Assembly: GCA_937928045.1 (NCBI GenBank)
Contig: CALFWO010000017.1
Span: 124,001 to 188,000, forward strand
Source of the DNA: an uncultured Saprospiraceae bacterium
Lineage (GTDB): Bacteria; Bacteroidota; Bacteroidia; Chitinophagales; Saprospiraceae
Reading direction: 5' to 3'
Length of the DNA stretch: 64,000 nt
This document shows, in pieces, positions 3,659 through 34,274 of the stretch. Position 1 is the first letter of the stretch. Each line of letters opens with the position of its first letter. Under the pieces are notes generated by a model. It was not told the DNA's origin. It worked only from the letters and a program-made list of their open reading frames with translations, and did not search any database. Position numbers and translations under genes: made by a program.

Positions 3659-4693
3659 ATGATTAGATATAACGATATCCGCATGGGGGCCATTGCCATT
3701 CACCGTGTCGGAAATAAGCATAGAGCAGAACGGAATTTTATCGCAGAAGGGACTTCAGACTTAGAAGTAGAGATCCGAGCAGCGCTCCTTTCTTACTTTT
3801 TGAAACCCCTAAAGCGCGAAGATCAACGCTATAGATTTGAATTGGATGAACGCACTGGCGCTAATGTGATTCGAAACGCGGCAGCAGAGATTTTTATAGA
3901 TCCCGAGTCGCTATACGAGCAATCGGTGATTATCCTTCACCACTTGTACAATCAATCTACGCATCCTAATATTAAATCTGGGGAATTGTATGTGGCTCAC
4001 TTTACGGACATCATTGTGGATGATGAGTTGGTGAATGCGATCGGCATATTTAAGTCGGAGCGTCGATCTGAATTTTTGAAAATCACTTCTGGTGGAACAC
4101 ACTTGGATTTGAAAATTCAAGATGGAATTAATCTTGGAAGATTAGATAAAGGCTGTTTGATTTTGGATGCTGCGGCTGGAGATAATTATCGTATACTTTC
4201 TGTGGACAACAACAACTATGACACTGAATATTGGCTGCGTTCTTTTCTGATGATGGAGCCAGTGAAAGATCAAGTTTTCCAAACCAAGAATTTCATGGAA
4301 CTTTGTAATTCATTTTCAGAGGAAGTGGTTGCTAAAGATGCTGGTAAAGGCGAACAGATGAAATTCATTGCAGATTCCGTTGATTACTTCGCGAACAATG
4401 AACAGTTTGATTTTGATAAATTCCGCGAAGAGATTCTTGTTGATGAACCCCGCGAAAGAAAATTCAAACAGTTTCAAGAAGATTATGAATTTCCGGAAAA
4501 TTACAGTTTTGAAATATCTCAGCCAGCCGTGAGTAAGGCTAGAAAGAAAATGAGTAATCTGATAAAATTGGATTCTGGTGTGCAAATAAAATTGGATCAT
4601 GCTTCCGAAGCTGCACAAAGCTACATGGAAAAAGGATTCGATGAACAGAAAGGCATGCACTATTACAAAGTGTTTTTCAACGAAGAATTATAA
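3659..4693 (+). CDS. Nucleoid-associated protein, NdpA/YejK-like (37-kDa NAP family)
   Basis: A 344-residue protein matching the 37-kD nucleoid-associated family. It opens with an IRYNDIRMGAIAIHRVGNK block. A middle block follows in which a conserved FTDIIVDDELVNAIGIFKSE core leads into a DLKIQDGINLGRLDKGCLI strand pair. Family members bind DNA and co-purify with the nucleoid. No signal or membrane segment is seen. TACCTTTA at 3633-3640 may be the -7 box. The stop codon overlaps the next ATG (TAATG), so translation of the two genes is probably coupled, although the partner is a membrane hydrolase-like protein with no obvious link. Confidence 0.8.
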   Translation: MIRYNDIRMGAIAIHRVGNKHRAERNFIAEGTSDLEVEIRAALLSYFLKPLKREDQRYRFELDERTGANVIRNAAAEIFIDPESLYEQSVIILHHLYNQSTHPNIKSGELYVAHFTDIIVDDELVNAIGIFKSERRSEFLKITSGGTHLDLKIQDGINLGRLDKGCLILDAAAGDNYRILSVDNNNYDTEYWLRSFLMMEPVKDQVFQTKNFMELCNSFSEEVVAKDAGKGEQMKFIADSVDYFANNEQFDFDKFREEILVDEPRERKFKQFQEDYEFPENYSFEISQPAVSKARKKMSNLIKLDSGVQIKLDHASEAAQSYMEKGFDEQKGMHYYKVFFNEEL

Positions 4694-6327
4694 TGACCAA
4701 TGATCCGGCGCATCATAAACCGGAAGTTAATGCCGTAGACGAGAAGGATGAGGGGAAAACATTGAAGGTGATCAAATCTTTGTTTGGTAACTTTCTACTA
4801 CTTTGCCTAGCTATCGTCTTGGTGCTATTCATCTATGGCATATGGCAACTCAAAGACCGTCATCCAGATGTTGGATTAGAACTCCAAGTCATACATTCGG
4901 AAGGGGCAATACAAGCTGGATTCGCAGCGCTTCCCATTAATCCTCAATATTACGATTCTTGGATTGACAATAATAAAAATGGAACCTTCGAAGAAGGCAC
5001 AGATTTTTATATGGATCTAAATGAAAATGATCAATTCGATGCGATCTGGATGGCTGGATTTCATTCCAATCGACCAATGTCTTCCATTCATGATACTTTG
5101 TTGGCCAGTGCAATGGTTTTACAAGTTGGGAAAAAATCGGTTGCATTATTGTCTTTGGATATTATCGGATTAGGAAATGATCAATGCTGGCAAATTCGAA
5201 AAGAGGTACGAGAGAAAACTGGAATTGATCATATTTATATTATTTCAACACACAATCATGAAGGCCCAGACCTCATTGGGCTATGGGGGAATAGTAAATA
5301 TAAATCAGGAGTTAATTCTAAATATTTAGAATATGTAATTGATCAATCTATTCTTAGTTTGACCTTAGCTTATCAAACGCGGCAGATGGCGCGGATCACT
5401 TTGGCTTCAGATAGCAGTTCTGCCATCGGTCTGTTGCAGGATACGCGTCCCCCGTATGTGGTAGATCCGATGATTAATATACTTCAAGCCAGGGCCATTT
5501 CCAATGATAAGGTATTGGGAACAGTTGTCAATTGGAGTAACCATGTAGAAACACTTTGGGATCAAAACCTAGCCTTGACGGCTGACTTTGTGCACTATTT
5601 GCGAAAAGGAATTTCTGAAGGAGTAGTCGATTCATCACAAACAATAGTTCCGAAGCAAGGAGGAGTGACACTCTTTGTTCCTGGTGCTATCGGGGGCCTG
5701 ATGACCACCAGCCCAGAATTATCAATAAGAAATCCATTGACCAAATCTTTTCATACCAAGCCTAGTTTTGAAAAAGCAGAGGCGCAGGGATATGCCTTGG
5801 CAAAGATTGTGCATGAATCCCTCAGCATGGATCACAATCAACCTTTTTTCCATACCACTTTACATTCTTATCAGCAGCCAATAGAACTACCATTGGAGAA
5901 TACCAACTTCAGGCTTGGTGCTTATTTGGGGTTGATCGATCGTGGTATGACTGGATGGATGAAGGTCCGATCCGAGATAGGATTTTGGCAATTGGGCCCA
6001 GCAAGTTTTGTGCACGTTCCTGGAGAATTGTATCCAGAATTGGCGATTGGAGGCATCGAAGAACCGACTCATGCAGACTATCCAAATGAAGCTTTGGAAG
6101 TGCCAGCGTTAAAAGAAGCTATGCCCGGTGAGCAGCGCTGGATCGTTGGGATGTCCAATGATATGATTGGCTATATTTTGCCGCGATCGCAATGGGATGC
6201 AAAAGCGCCATATACTTATGAGCAGACTAAGGCACCTTACGGAGAGGTGATGTCATTGGGGCCGCAAACCGCGCCAAAGATTCATGCTGCGCTGATGTCC
6301 TTGATAGCCGGTGGAGAGGAGGAATAA
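4693..6327 (+). CDS. Membrane-anchored neutral ceramidase-like protein
   Basis: A 544-residue protein with one hydrophobic segment at about residues 30-50 (NFLLLCLAIVLVLFIYG) and the rest presumably outside the inner membrane. The core resembles the N-terminal catalytic domain of neutral/alkaline non-lysosomal ceramidases: AGFAALPIN near the start, LLSLDIIGL, the metal-site-like THNHEGPD (ceramidases have THTH.GPG), then NWSNHVE and a G-rich FVPGAIGG. Ahead of it sits an insertion of two Asp-rich loops (DNNKNGTFEEG and DLNENDQFD) typical of calcium-binding EF-hand-like repeats. The ATG overlaps the preceding stop. It may hydrolyse sphingolipid or a related amide, but the substrate is not predictable. 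The family assignment is moderate. Confidence 0.65.
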   Translation: MTNDPAHHKPEVNAVDEKDEGKTLKVIKSLFGNFLLLCLAIVLVLFIYGIWQLKDRHPDVGLELQVIHSEGAIQAGFAALPINPQYYDSWIDNNKNGTFEEGTDFYMDLNENDQFDAIWMAGFHSNRPMSSIHDTLLASAMVLQVGKKSVALLSLDIIGLGNDQCWQIRKEVREKTGIDHIYIISTHNHEGPDLIGLWGNSKYKSGVNSKYLEYVIDQSILSLTLAYQTRQMARITLASDSSSAIGLLQDTRPPYVVDPMINILQARAISNDKVLGTVVNWSNHVETLWDQNLALTADFVHYLRKGISEGVVDSSQTIVPKQGGVTLFVPGAIGGLMTTSPELSIRNPLTKSFHTKPSFEKAEAQGYALAKIVHESLSMDHNQPFFHTTLHSYQQPIELPLENTNFRLGAYLGLIDRGMTGWMKVRSEIGFWQLGPASFVHVPGELYPELAIGGIEEPTHADYPNEALEVPALKEAMPGEQRWIVGMSNDMIGYILPRSQWDAKAPYTYEQTKAPYGEVMSLGPQTAPKIHAALMSLIAGGEEE

Positions 6328-6959: not shown

Positions 6960-7029
6960 GTTATAGCTTCTAGTCATCGACTAATTTCGCGAAAACATCT
7001 TACTAAGTGAAGAATCACTTTGGATTATA

Positions 7030-7140
7030 ATTCCCACGGAATCGCGAGAGCTGCTTGGAAAGTCCAATAGGGGCTCAATGGACTGAGCAGAATAGAGCGC
7101 TTGAAAAGGGGCGCTCCTGAGGTAATCAGGGGATTGCCCG
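7030..7140. repeat. Hairpin-rich intergenic element, copy 1 (possible structured RNA)
   Basis: This GC-richer block between divergent genes resembles a second copy at 13535-13632. Shared strings are ATTCCC[A/T]CGGA, GAGCTGC and AAGGGGCG, in the same order. It folds as consecutive short hairpins: 7055-7059 with 7063-7067, 7073-7077 with 7084-7088, 7095-7100 with 7111-7116, and 7116-7120 with 7126-7130. The first two are also possible in copy 2 with different stem sequences. No protein reading is credible. It may be a small RNA, a cis-regulatory leader or a REP-like repeat; the strand is undetermined. Confidence 0.45.
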
Positions 7141-7193
7141 AATAAATATTATGCGCAAATATCAGACAGCGCCAAAGATTTAAGTAGCGTTGT

Positions 7194-7201
7194 TATCTTT
7201 G
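7194..7201 (+). promoter_or_regulatory. Putative -7 box upstream of the TonB_C/TPR gene
   Basis: TATCTTTG matches the Bacteroidota TAnnTTTG -7 consensus exactly and sits 57 bases ahead of the GTG start. No clear TTTG lies 19-20 bases upstream, so the match is partial. If used, it excludes the 7030-7140 element from this mRNA. Confidence 0.4.
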
Positions 7202-7258
7202 ACGTCCCAAGCCGAAGTGGAGTAGTGTTGCTCCGAGTTTTCTGAAAAATAAGATACC

Positions 7259-8380
7259 GTGAGAATATTATTATTGTTATTAATATGTGTTGCGCCGTTT
7301 GTACTTCAAGCGCAAGATGAGCCATTGCGAATTGCTGATAAGAAACCCATACTGAAAAAATGTTTGCAAGTGGGTGATGAGATTCAGCGGGAGCAGTGCA
7401 CCAACGAGGGGATGCTTACATATCTTTATCAAAATATCATCTATCCCGATACGGCCTTAGCGCAAGGATTGGAAGGCATGGTCGTCGCAGAAATCGTAAT
7501 CGCCAAGTCAGGAATGGTCACTTCTCATAAAATATTGAAAGATATTGGTGCGGGATGCGGCGAGGAAGTGGGTCGGGTTTTGAATGAATTGACAAAGGTT
7601 GCTCCCATTTGGGCACCTGCTTTGAAAGGCGGACAGCCAATAGATTATGTGATGACGATTCCAGTGAAGTTTAAGATTCCAGAACCACCAGCTCCACCAT
7701 TGCCATACAATATTTATGGGGAAGCCGATACCGTATATCATACTTATACCTCTGCTCCGATGTTGGGGGAGAATATTCAAGTATTAGAGAAAAAAATATT
7801 GGATGAATTGAATTATCCAAAGGGATTTGAGGACAGTTGTTTTGTTGGAAGCATGGTGGCGCAATTGGTTGTGAGCAAAAAAGGAGAACTTAATATTCTA
7901 GAGATAATAGATTATGAAGACCTTGGGATTGATTTTCAATTTCAATTAATAGAATTGATTAATTCGACTTCTGGCCAATGGTCACCGGCGATGTACGATG
8001 GTCAGCCTGTGCACGCTTTCCATAATATTCGAGCAGTTTTCTCTCCGAAATCAGCGGTTTGTCAGACTTCAGCTTCGAACTTTGCTTCGGCGAATGAGAT
8101 GGCGCGATTGGGAGAGGTCAGATACCTGCAAGGAGATTTTGAAAGTGCATTGGAGCAATGGGGGAAGGCGATAGATCTATTTCCAAACAATGCTGAATTT
8201 CGTCTTTTGCGTGGTCAAGCTTTGATGGACAAAGGGGTTATGAAAGCACAGTGTTGCGAGGATTTGACTTTAGCCGGACGCAATGTGCCATTGGATCCAA
8301 TCCTGAGATCAGTACTTCCTTTGGTATGCCAAGCAGGAGCGCAGGATTCTGCAGTGGTGGATTCTTTGGGAAATGAATAG
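7259..8380 (+). CDS. Secreted protein with two TonB C-terminal domains and a TPR
   Basis: GTG start, chosen because it opens a signal peptide (MRILLLLLICVAPFVLQAQ). Residues about 55-145 form a good TonB_C domain (YPDTALAQGLEGMVVAEIVI, IGAGCGEEVGRVL, W.PALKGGQPIDYVMTIPVKFK). Residues about 170-265 are a degenerate second copy (LDELNYPKGFED, QWSPAMYDGQPV). Residues about 285-350 form a TPR-like pair (GEVRYLQGDFESALEQWGKAIDLFPNNAEF). There is no N-terminal transmembrane anchor beyond the signal, so it is unlikely to be a working ExbBD-linked TonB. It is probably a periplasmic adaptor that borrowed the fold. Confidence 0.75.
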   Translation: MRILLLLLICVAPFVLQAQDEPLRIADKKPILKKCLQVGDEIQREQCTNEGMLTYLYQNIIYPDTALAQGLEGMVVAEIVIAKSGMVTSHKILKDIGAGCGEEVGRVLNELTKVAPIWAPALKGGQPIDYVMTIPVKFKIPEPPAPPLPYNIYGEADTVYHTYTSAPMLGENIQVLEKKILDELNYPKGFEDSCFVGSMVAQLVVSKKGELNILEIIDYEDLGIDFQFQLIELINSTSGQWSPAMYDGQPVHAFHNIRAVFSPKSAVCQTSASNFASANEMARLGEVRYLQGDFESALEQWGKAIDLFPNNAEFRLLRGQALMDKGVMKAQCCEDLTLAGRNVPLDPILRSVLPLVCQAGAQDSAVVDSLGNE

Positions 8381-13391: not shown

Positions 13392-13534
13392 ACAATTAGA
13401 AACGCAAAAAAATATATTTTAGTACAAATGATAAATATTGATTAATTCTAAGAAGTTAATTTTTATCGAGGATCTGCTAATAGGTAAATATTATTCGCTT
13501 ATGGAAATTTGATTTGTTTCGAAACGGAGCCATG

Positions 13535-13632
13535 ATTCCCTCGGAGCGCATGAGCTGCCGACAAGTTGGAAGACCGACTAATTAGGGAGACTAAGAAGGG
13601 GCGACTCTGAAGCTATATGAAGGAGGCACCCC
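13535..13632. repeat. Hairpin-rich intergenic element, copy 2
   Basis: Related to 7030-7140 by ATTCCCTCGGA, GAGCTGC and AAGGGGCG in the same order. Hairpins at 13565-13569 with 13574-13578 and 13582-13585 with 13591-13594 occupy the same places as the first two hairpins of copy 1, but with different stem bases. It lies at the left border of the AT-rich island and upstream, on the minus strand, of the beta-barrel gene. Confidence 0.45.
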
Positions 13633-13768
13633 AAAAGATTATTTTTGAAATTTTATATTTATTTAATAGTATCTAGAAAAATTAAGATCGAAAATTATCG
13701 TAAAGTTGGATTGTTGGGACTTATGTTCATTTAAAAGTAAAATAAAAATATTGACCACTACCCAGAGG

Positions 13769-13856
13769 GTCGCTATGCTCCAGTGCTCACTATTCGTTCG
13801 GCAGCGACTAAGGTCACGTTTGGTGATTTGGAATCACCAAACTTGCGCAGCGCTGG
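13769..13856. repeat. Nested-hairpin intergenic repeat
   Basis: GTCGCT (13769-13774) pairs with AGCGAC (13803-13808), and a perfect 11-base stem follows, 13818-13828 with 13832-13842 (loop TGG), then a GCGCAGCGC block. The GC content is clearly higher than the flanks. An 84-codon reading frame across it (13706-13960) has no protein features. It looks like a mobile intergenic palindrome or a transcription boundary; no transposase is nearby. Confidence 0.6.
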
Positions 13857-14033
13857 TGGTTATGATACATTTTATAAATTATAAGAGCTGTTTGGGTATT
13901 TTAAAAGATGAATTTGCCGCATTATTATTGCTTGTAGCCATTAAATTATTACTCCAATAAAAATGCTCCATTTATTTTATGGATTCTATCACAAATTATT
14001 TACAAATAATGATAACAAATATATTTCAAAATA

Positions 14034-32828: not shown

Positions 32829-34274
32829 ATGGCATTCAAACTTCCGGAATTACCTTATGCAGTAAATTCTTTGGAACCACATTTCGATGAAAAAACCATG
32901 TCTATACATCATGGAAAACATCACAACGGTTACACTAATAAATTAAACGCAGCTATCGCCGGAACTCGCTTAGAAAAATTATCTATTGAAGATATTTTGG
33001 CAAAGGCGGGTAAACATGGCGCAGGGGTAAGAAATAACGGCGGTGGTTTTTACAACCACTCTTTATTTTGGAAAATCCTTTCTCCTAAAGGAGGAGGAAA
33101 ACCTTCTTCACGATCAAAGTTAGGTAGAGCATTTAATCGTGCTTTCAAAACTTACGATGATTTTAAAACACAATTTGCTGCTGCCGCTGGAACTAGATTT
33201 GGTTCGGGGTGGGCTTGGTTGTGTGTTAATCGATCGGGCAGCTTATTTATTACGTCAACACCCAATCAAGATAATCCCTTGATGGATGTAGCTGAGAAAA
33301 AGGGAACTCCAATTTTAGGATTGGATGTTTGGGAACATGCCTATTACTTAAAGTATCAGAATAAGAGACCTGATTACGTACAGGCCTTTTTTAAACTCAT
33401 AAATTGGGAACAAGTAGCGGCGAATTATGATGCTGCTGTTGCTAAGAAATCTACATCAATCAGAACTACTTCTACTAAAAATTCTACTAGAATGAAATCT
33501 ACTGCAAAAAAGGCTACTGCGAAAAAGGCGACTGCCAAAAAAGCAACGGCCAAAAAGGCTAAAGCCAAAAAAGCTACTGCCAAAAAAACAACGGCTAAAA
33601 AAACTGTAGCTAAAAAGAAGACAACTGCAAAGAAGTCTACTGCTAAAAAAGCAACAACAAGAAAGCCAGCGGCGAAGAAGACAACTGCAAAGAAGTCTAC
33701 TGCCAAAAAAGCAACAACAAGGAAGCCAGCGGCGAAGAAGACAACTGCAAAGAAGTCTACTGCTAAAAAAACAACAACAAGGAAGCCAGCGGCGAAGAAG
33801 ACAACTGCAAAGAAGTCTACTGCTAAAAAAGCAACAACAAGAAAGGCAGCAGCGAAGAAGACAACAGCAAAGAAGTCTACTGCTAAAAAAGCAACAACGA
33901 GAAAGACAGCGGCGAAGAAGACAACTGCAAAGAAGTCTACTGCTAAAAAAGCAACAACAAGAAAGACAGCAGCAAAGAAGACAACTGCAAAGAAGTCTAC
34001 TGCAAAGAAGGCAACTGCAAAGAAGGTGACTAAAAGGAAGCCAGCAGCGAAGAAGACGACTGCAAAGAAGTCTACTGCAAAGAAAGCAACTGCAAAGAAG
34101 GTGACTAAAAGGAAGCCAGCAGCGAAGAAGACGACTGCAAAGAAGTCTACGGCAAAGAAAGCAACTGCAAAGAAGGTGACTAAAAAGAAGCCAGTAGCGA
34201 AGAAGAAGGCAACTACTAGAAAGCCAGCTCGTAAAAAAGTTAGCTTAAGAAAATCGGCAGCTAAGAAAAAGTAA
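32829..34274 (+). CDS. Fe/Mn superoxide dismutase fused to a histone H1-like Lys-rich tail
   Basis: A 481-residue protein. Residues 1-202 are a complete Fe/Mn SOD with metal ligands His27, His77, Asp166 and His170 ([25 protein letters not shown]) and a Gln in TPNQDNPL that favours the Mn type. From about 206 to the end runs a tail almost wholly of Lys, Ala, Thr, Ser, Arg and Pro in [13 protein letters not shown]-type repeats, like histone H1/Hc1 tails. No signal peptide is present, so it should be cytoplasmic and DNA-bound, scavenging superoxide at the nucleoid (inference). The frame is uninterrupted across the junction and the tail shares the SOD promoter. SOD alone is about 200 residues. 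Confidence 0.9.
33616..34200 (+). repeat. In-frame tandem repeats coding for the Lys-rich tail
   Basis: About six units of 60 bases (20 codons, [20 protein letters not shown]-type) run from 33616 to about 33980. They are followed by 75-base units marked by GGTGAC at 34025, 34100 and 34175. All periods are multiples of three, so copy-number change would keep the frame and vary the tail length. Confidence 0.9.

Follow-up and report, generated by a model that had tools for sequence, protein, structure and literature searches.

What are the two intergenic stretches (c1 and c2 of Table 1) that share the blocks ATTCCC.CGGA, GAGCTGC and AAGGGGCG in the same order? They lie in a contig of an uncultured Saprospiraceae bacterium, within the 64,000 nucleotides analysed here (the window, with a GC content of 36.6%), and a sequence-only reading had taken them for the two copies of an element with a selected RNA fold, placed upstream of beta-barrel genes. 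The shared blocks are there as claimed, and the pattern GAGCTGC-N25..55-AGGGGCG, which occurs twice in the window, was found in none of 100 shuffles. With composition-weighted scores, the best partner of the second region within the window was the first (38.3 bits, the next being 28.9), and the best partner of the first was a nearby gene end (48.8 bits), followed by the second region. Plain alignment of the two intergenic regions, matched by 54 of 500 and 11 of 500 shuffles under two scoring schemes, is weaker evidence, so the decisive evidence is the repeat family described below. We consider it probable (roughly 0.6) that c1, c2 and a third stretch, c3, are degenerate copies of a structured repeat of about 110 nt that codes for nothing, is dispersed between the genes of Saprospira-like Bacteroidota and behaves like the REP/BIME repeats.

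From two stretches to a dispersed family

A sequence-only model made from c1 and c2 alone (R1) was searched in three genomes of the genus. It found three further places in the window's own genome (E 2.6e-6 to 5.7e-6, with a fourth at 0.005) and three in the congener G159 (E 7e-5 to 0.002), and had no match in the congener G066. The further copies were better preserved than c1 and c2. The consensus, as obtained by reading, runs GCGTGAGYTGCCTGGAAG, variable hairpins, GGNCCGA NN GAATA NN GAG YCTGGAAGGGARCGACC, a variable hairpin, and finally GGCACGCC CAAA. A structural model from eight copies (R2, with 18 candidates scored per genome) matched in 25 of 198 genomes of the taxonomic family, representing 19 of its 112 genera. 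Across the phylum, with eight candidates scored per genome, a model from 95 copies (R3) matched in at least seven of 395 genomes and at least five of 171 genera, two other families included, and the 388 phylum genomes without a match double as a control. The alignment of 95 copies behind R3 (A8) omits L084 (a short 3′ part), L101 (cut off), L110, L111 and L113 (near-identical orthologues of L106, L107 and L108) and loci repeating the same copies, and keeps L112 despite its near-identity to L109; alignment A5 is without L022, the same copy being entered as L064.

Copy numbers differ widely. At E 0.001, R3 has 20 matches in the genome of the window (G000), five in G159, none in G066, 86 in G082, 77 in G172 and 17 in G062, and at least 123 in G057 (Saprospira grandis Lewin) and at least 131 in G152, for each of which 150 of more than 1,500 candidates were scored. 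G066 belongs to the window's genus and is 81% complete, so that its lack of copies, against the 20 of G000, indicates a patchy distribution within the genus. Chance similarity of two stretches is ruled out by the composition-weighted scores, the R1 matches and the fold common to 95 copies. The exact three-block pattern was rejected as a finder of the family: it picked out only c1 and c2 among 199 family genomes, and its matches in three places in other phyla (L004–L006) are not copies, with no R3 match at E 1. Carriage by phages or viruses was also rejected, as the one IMG/VR contig that matched a 17-letter pattern did so inside a long ORF and was not an R3 match; a second pattern had no match in IMG/VR, nor had one copy used as a query against phage records.

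When eight genomes were each compared with themselves, homology between copies mostly stopped at the borders of the element (GCGTG...CACGCCCAAA), the exceptions being L072/L075, L069/L080, L125/L128 and an upstream hairpin in G057. The copies L072 and L075 (both in G082) share about 80 bp more on the downstream side, with 87% identity over 198 bp, and may be part of a larger duplication; some other shared repeats were seen elsewhere in the self-compared loci. G082 and G172, which belong to one genus, had one common site (L077/L100) among the 18 and 17 loci compared, themselves part of 86 and 77 copies, and at this site the copies agree in the core but not in the hairpins. Within Saprospira, positions are stable: all four G057 copies examined against G152 lie at orthologous sites.

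Table 1. Repeat copies and adjoining features in the window
Feature	Coordinates	Strand	Remarks
Repeat copy c1	7028..7138	+	Conserved core starts GCGAG at 7044; R2 and R3 matches
Repeat copy c2	13532..13632	+	Core starts GCATG at 13548; R2 and R3 matches
Third, weaker repeat copy c3	13753..13873	-	R3 25.9 bits, E 7.3e-5 in the window
Neighbour gene of c1, 213 aa	6336..6977	-	Outside the repeat; no Pfam match
Gene 4693–6327, partial duplicate of its 3′ end	7163..7222	+	Aligns to 6265–6316 and to G159 L008

In the window itself, R3 finds three copies. The earlier proposal of a two-copy element was thus right about the copies and wrong about their number, as there is a weaker third one and all belong to a larger family. 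Copy c1 scored 78 bits with R2 (over 7028–7140) and 51.2 bits with R3 (E 1.7e-11 in the window), and c2 84.2 and 39.7 bits (E 1.7e-8), respectively. The third copy, 120 bp from c2 and in the opposite orientation, contains CCGA-AC-GAATA-GT-GAG and CGACCC, and overlaps a putative ORF of 84 aa (13706–13960). Both c1 and c2 are degenerate, and are among the most worn copies of the family: each has five of 18 core pairs unformed in A8 (one of them a gap), which puts them at the bottom of the 95 copies (66 of which have none or one), although this count is partly an effect of the alignment, the R3 alignment forming four of the five closing pairs of c1 (one as G-U) and three of the five of c2, and leaving three of 20 pairs of c1 non-standard. 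A broken closing helix in c1, which we had considered, is accordingly rejected. The window copies are probably no longer active.

As the sequence-only reading had noted, c1 and c2 lie upstream of minus-strand genes (by 51 and 141 nt, respectively), but the label 'beta-barrel' was given from the appearance of the sequences: neither product has a Pfam match at E 0.01, and the two have no detectable relation to each other (BLASTP E = 0.2). The gene next to c1 has matches in two of 60 relatives, namely its own genome and, at 24%, G159. At the corresponding locus of G159 (L008), which has no copy by R2 or R3, the counterpart of gene 4693–6327 (544 aa) directly adjoins a TonB-domain gene; in the window the 213-aa gene and c1 intervene, and then comes a partial duplicate of the end of the first gene, after which the TonB-domain gene follows at 7259. 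This duplicate is the trace of a rearrangement by which a segment with the 213-aa gene and c1 was added. It resembles the version in the congener (86% over 36 nt) more closely than the gene end as it now stands (75% over 40 nt).

The fold, and whether it is one of RNA or of DNA

The repeat, at about 110 nt, has a fixed core, a closing helix of 5 bp that itself covaries, an irregular long helix and hypervariable hairpins, making four helices in the model and two further hairpins (B and C). In the 95 copies, 96.5% of 1,659 cells hold standard pairs (77.6% in shuffles, and 45.6–55.0% with slid partners), changes occur on both sides in 17 of 18 pairs, double-changed cells number 263 (shuffle mean 50; slid 22–50), and the covariation score is 0.486 (0.140 in shuffles and at most 0.118 when slid); these alignments were fitted to the model, which inflates the pairing figures. 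For that reason the hairpins outside R2 were tested on raw sequences, leaving out the 19 of 95 copies without an anchor: hairpin C (at least 2 bp) was present in 59 of 76 copies (shuffle mean 21, maximum 31), and 39 of the 76 had hairpin B (of 4 bp or more), against a shuffle mean of 15 and a maximum of 24.

Compensatory change in the fold is massive across the 95 copies, and this, with the orthologous copies considered below, carries the idea of a selected fold with paired changes far beyond the two stretches on which it was first based; a lack of covariation, which would have spoken against it, is not what was found. The particular hairpins first proposed (TTGGA/TCCAA, GTTGG/CCGAC, GCTCA/TGAGC and TTAG/CTAA) fared less well. 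Most of them do not correspond to helices of the family: when the 95 copies are aligned, the strand GAGCTGCcTGGAAG finds its partner in a distant downstream GGAAGGGarC, and not in its neighbour. Some of the double changes could also stem from exchange between copies.

Is the folded strand RNA? The chief rival to a dispersed repeat is that the copies are functional RNA within transcripts, intercistronic or leader structures that set mRNA ends, stability or read-through and are kept by the host at gene boundaries, a reading that we regard as rather unlikely. Favouring it, G-U cells exceed A-C cells in model-aligned copies (41:12, 31:3 and 40:1), although the covariance model itself favours G-U and, in the Saprospira sets, the excess sits almost wholly at one pair. 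In strand-neutral folds of whole orthologous copies we counted 74 double Watson–Crick changes, 17 other double changes, and single changes giving 75 GU, 104 AC and 221 others. When whole orthologous copies were folded freely, broken pairs numbered 144, against 36 preserved through a single change and 36 through a double one, which tells against our preferred reading. For orthologous core pairs of three Saprospira plasmids (ordered comparisons in 18 hand-listed groups, again with a fitted alignment that inflates pairing), double Watson–Crick changes numbered 96, double unpaired seven, single GU four, single AC six and others 10. The GU:AC excess is thus not borne out as proof of an RNA strand, and of the claim of a selected RNA fold it is the fold that stands: in orthologous core pairs, single changes giving G-U are as scarce as those giving A-C (four and six). 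The scarcity of core G-U intermediates lends no support to a plain single-stranded RNA; a hairpin in DNA, a requirement in both strands or exchange between copies would each fit it.

Place and core helices are retained by orthologous copies between strains, as host-kept functional RNA would lead one to expect. In 45 comparisons of orthologous plasmid copies, change amounted to 15.3% in loops, 8.1% in stems and 6.8% in flanks; that the flanks (mostly coding) changed less than the stems is a point against our preferred reading.

Placement among genes and the alternating order in Saprospira grandis

Copies of the repeat are placed independently of gene orientation. Among the 62 of 72 copies for which both neighbours were called, the four gene arrangements (+,+), (+,-), (-,+) and (-,-) numbered 18, 17, 14 and 13, and clustering of the proteins around copies gave no recurring family as a common partner. 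Between co-directional genes, sense and antisense copies were even, at 40 and 42 on the S. grandis chromosome stretches and 17 and 20 on the three Saprospira plasmids, which weighs against functional RNA, as does the absence of any conserved promoter or terminator seen by eye in the flanks. The consistent sense position upstream of one gene class that marks a riboswitch or leader was not found. In support of an RNA working at gene boundaries, the 3′ end of 11 of the 18 R3 copies on the S. grandis Lewin plasmid lies near a stop or start codon (4–10 nt past the former or 16–59 nt before the latter). Few copies fall within genes: the midpoint is inside a called ORF of at least 120 aa for 12 of 146 S. 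grandis copies.

In Saprospira grandis, a predatory bacterium, the family is present in large numbers. With one copy as a query against plasmid records, matches were confined to three Saprospira plasmids, with 11–17 places in each, and a copy at 33627–33757 of contig 2 of G057 shares its coordinates with one on NC_016936.1. R3 has 57 matches in the three plasmids (150 kb), most of them within inter-plasmid alignments, and 107 (at E 0.1) in 400 kb of the S. grandis chromosome, taken as two 200-kb stretches. In the same 400 kb a genus-specific nhmmer profile gave 146 copies after the merging of split matches, or one per 2.7 kb, and its strand agreed with that of R3 for 107 of 107. Nested in several Saprospira copies is another repeat, shorter at about 45–50 nt and of the form ACAACAAG-hairpin-CGCAGTTCGACGACCAAAGGGAGTAAC or nearly so, as at L159 20322–20529 and 30643–30809 and near 6.5, 21 and 24 kb of the G057 chromosome. 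Copies in this genus can also have an extra 5′ hairpin of the GGCGGCGAAGCCGCC type upstream of the core (L106, L107 and L108), and in many an A-rich stretch follows the 3′ CCCC.

In S. grandis, most copies are oriented opposite to their neighbours. At spacings of at least 300 bp this was so for 54 of 64 pairs in one chromosomal stretch and 60 of 68 in the other (binomial P of 1e-8 and 3e-11, respectively), 114 of 132 together, and for 17 of 18, 17 of 17 and 15 of 16 pairs on the three plasmids, which are orthologous and hence not independent. At lag 2 only 15 of 68 and 16 of 74 were opposite, so that the alternating order persists. With R3 matches alone, by which copies are missed, the figures were 37 of 49 and 43 of 56. 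When the called genes that flank and separate a pair of copies were all on the same strand, the pair was still opposite in 31 of 35 cases (P 2e-6), and gene direction therefore does not explain the alternation. Divergent gaps held 19 plus and six minus copies on the chromosome, and five plus and 13 minus on the plasmids. A minus copy tends to be followed at a short distance by a plus one, and a plus copy at a long distance by a minus one (S. grandis neighbour copies, L159–L161 and L162–L181). In sparser genomes, no alternation was seen among the copies listed (55 of 86 in G082 and 13 of 17 in G062), with 18 of 32 and four of 12 pairs opposite, respectively.

It is possible, although we put it forward with some doubt, that in Saprospira about 1,600 copies (by extrapolation from the 146 in 400 kb) mark gene boundaries alternately, with most genes or short runs of genes bounded by inverted copies, that this genome-wide order is kept by selection irrespective of gene direction, and that the family elsewhere, the window included, consists of sparse or worn relatives. 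If so, the order may act by neighbouring copies pairing with each other, as RNA or as DNA, or by loops being anchored.

How the repeat may spread, and other explanations

On the preferred reading of a dispersed structured repeat, the folded single strand, whether RNA or single-stranded DNA, would be recognised by selection or by a protein that handles the element; a trans-acting protein may well recognise the fold, and copies would spread by element copying into intergenic gaps, in either orientation and without genes of their own. Where the family thrives (Saprospira, G082 and G172), core helices would then be kept by compensatory change as loops and hairpins drift. Movement is inferred because the distribution is patchy and sister genomes share few sites. 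No empty site with exact ends came to light, nothing the size of the element having been gained or lost in the BLAST-aligned parts of the three Saprospira plasmids, and a search for Y1_Tnp identified no mobilising protein. The alternating orientation in Saprospira is not something that random spread predicts. As to the earlier remark that the stretches might prove to be transposon remnants, they are indeed worn copies of a dispersed repeat, but no transposase is tied to it.

Might the repeat be of the REP/BIME kind, with a RAYT (Y1/HUH) transposase to mobilise it? The life-style is the same, with many folded intergenic copies, and BIMEs too alternate in orientation (PMC2817692). Yet Y1_Tnp is present in 21 of 25 genomes with the repeat and in 17 of 20 without it (scored as presence per genome), the match in G000 is a fragment with two stop codons, and within 8 nt of the closing helix the foot tags GTAG, GGAG and CGTC occur in none, seven and two of the 95 copies, respectively; known REPs, moreover, are palindromes of 20–40 bp, one end of which carries GTAG or CGTC (PMC3733652). 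We think such a RAYT-driven origin improbable.

A guide-RNA scaffold, or some relative of a catalogued RNA such as HEARO (omega RNA) or IMES-2, is less probable still. HEARO (RF02033) is a structured RNA that can occur without its gene; none of 30 relatives has a match even at E 0.1 (the threshold being 83 bits), and no recurring nuclease gene was seen near the copies. IMES-2 RNA (RF02035) is of similar length and one copy, L055, scores 25.8 bits over the full model, but this, the best score, is below the threshold of 54.7, which was reached in none of 15 genomes, and the next two matches, L104 and L105, are not R3 matches. Finally, a cis-regulatory RNA of outer-membrane beta-barrel genes, suggested by c1 and c2 each lying upstream of a gene of that look, is refuted as a general property of the family and hardly credible, as no gene class or orientation is preferred, the two proteins are unrelated by BLASTP, and the conserved strand of the family reads away from both genes.

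Known systems compared

Rfam 15 had no model at its gathering threshold in the window or in 20 loci with copies, and in this respect the repeat adds a large, strongly covarying family to what is catalogued. No paper on intergenic repeats in Saprospira turned up among the articles searched. The small mobile repeats known as REPINs, RUP, RU-1/2/3 and the bcr type are short, dispersed, gene-free and intergenic, and are thought to be non-autonomous; our repeat is like them in these ways, and differs in that its ends are only a covarying closing helix of 5 bp. The genome announcement of S. grandis WH (PMC10508125) does not mention such repeats.

The closest likeness is to the REP/BIME system. Like its members, the repeat is present in many intergenic, folded and gene-free copies per genome, and in S. 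grandis (not among the listed copies of G082 and G062) its neighbours alternate. Its way of working is that of a REP/BIME system, yet we do not class it as such, because the foot tags are rare and the Y1 family is equally common in genomes without the repeat. In form, too, it differs, with about 110 nt, several helices and hypervariable hairpins in place of the single palindrome of 20–40 bp of the REPs. The purpose of REP-like repeats for a genome becomes directly testable here, in a cultured bacterium with complete genomes. BIMEs are tight clusters, whereas the alternation in S. grandis spans kilobases and genes, a measurable long-range order of a kind that random insertion does not yield.
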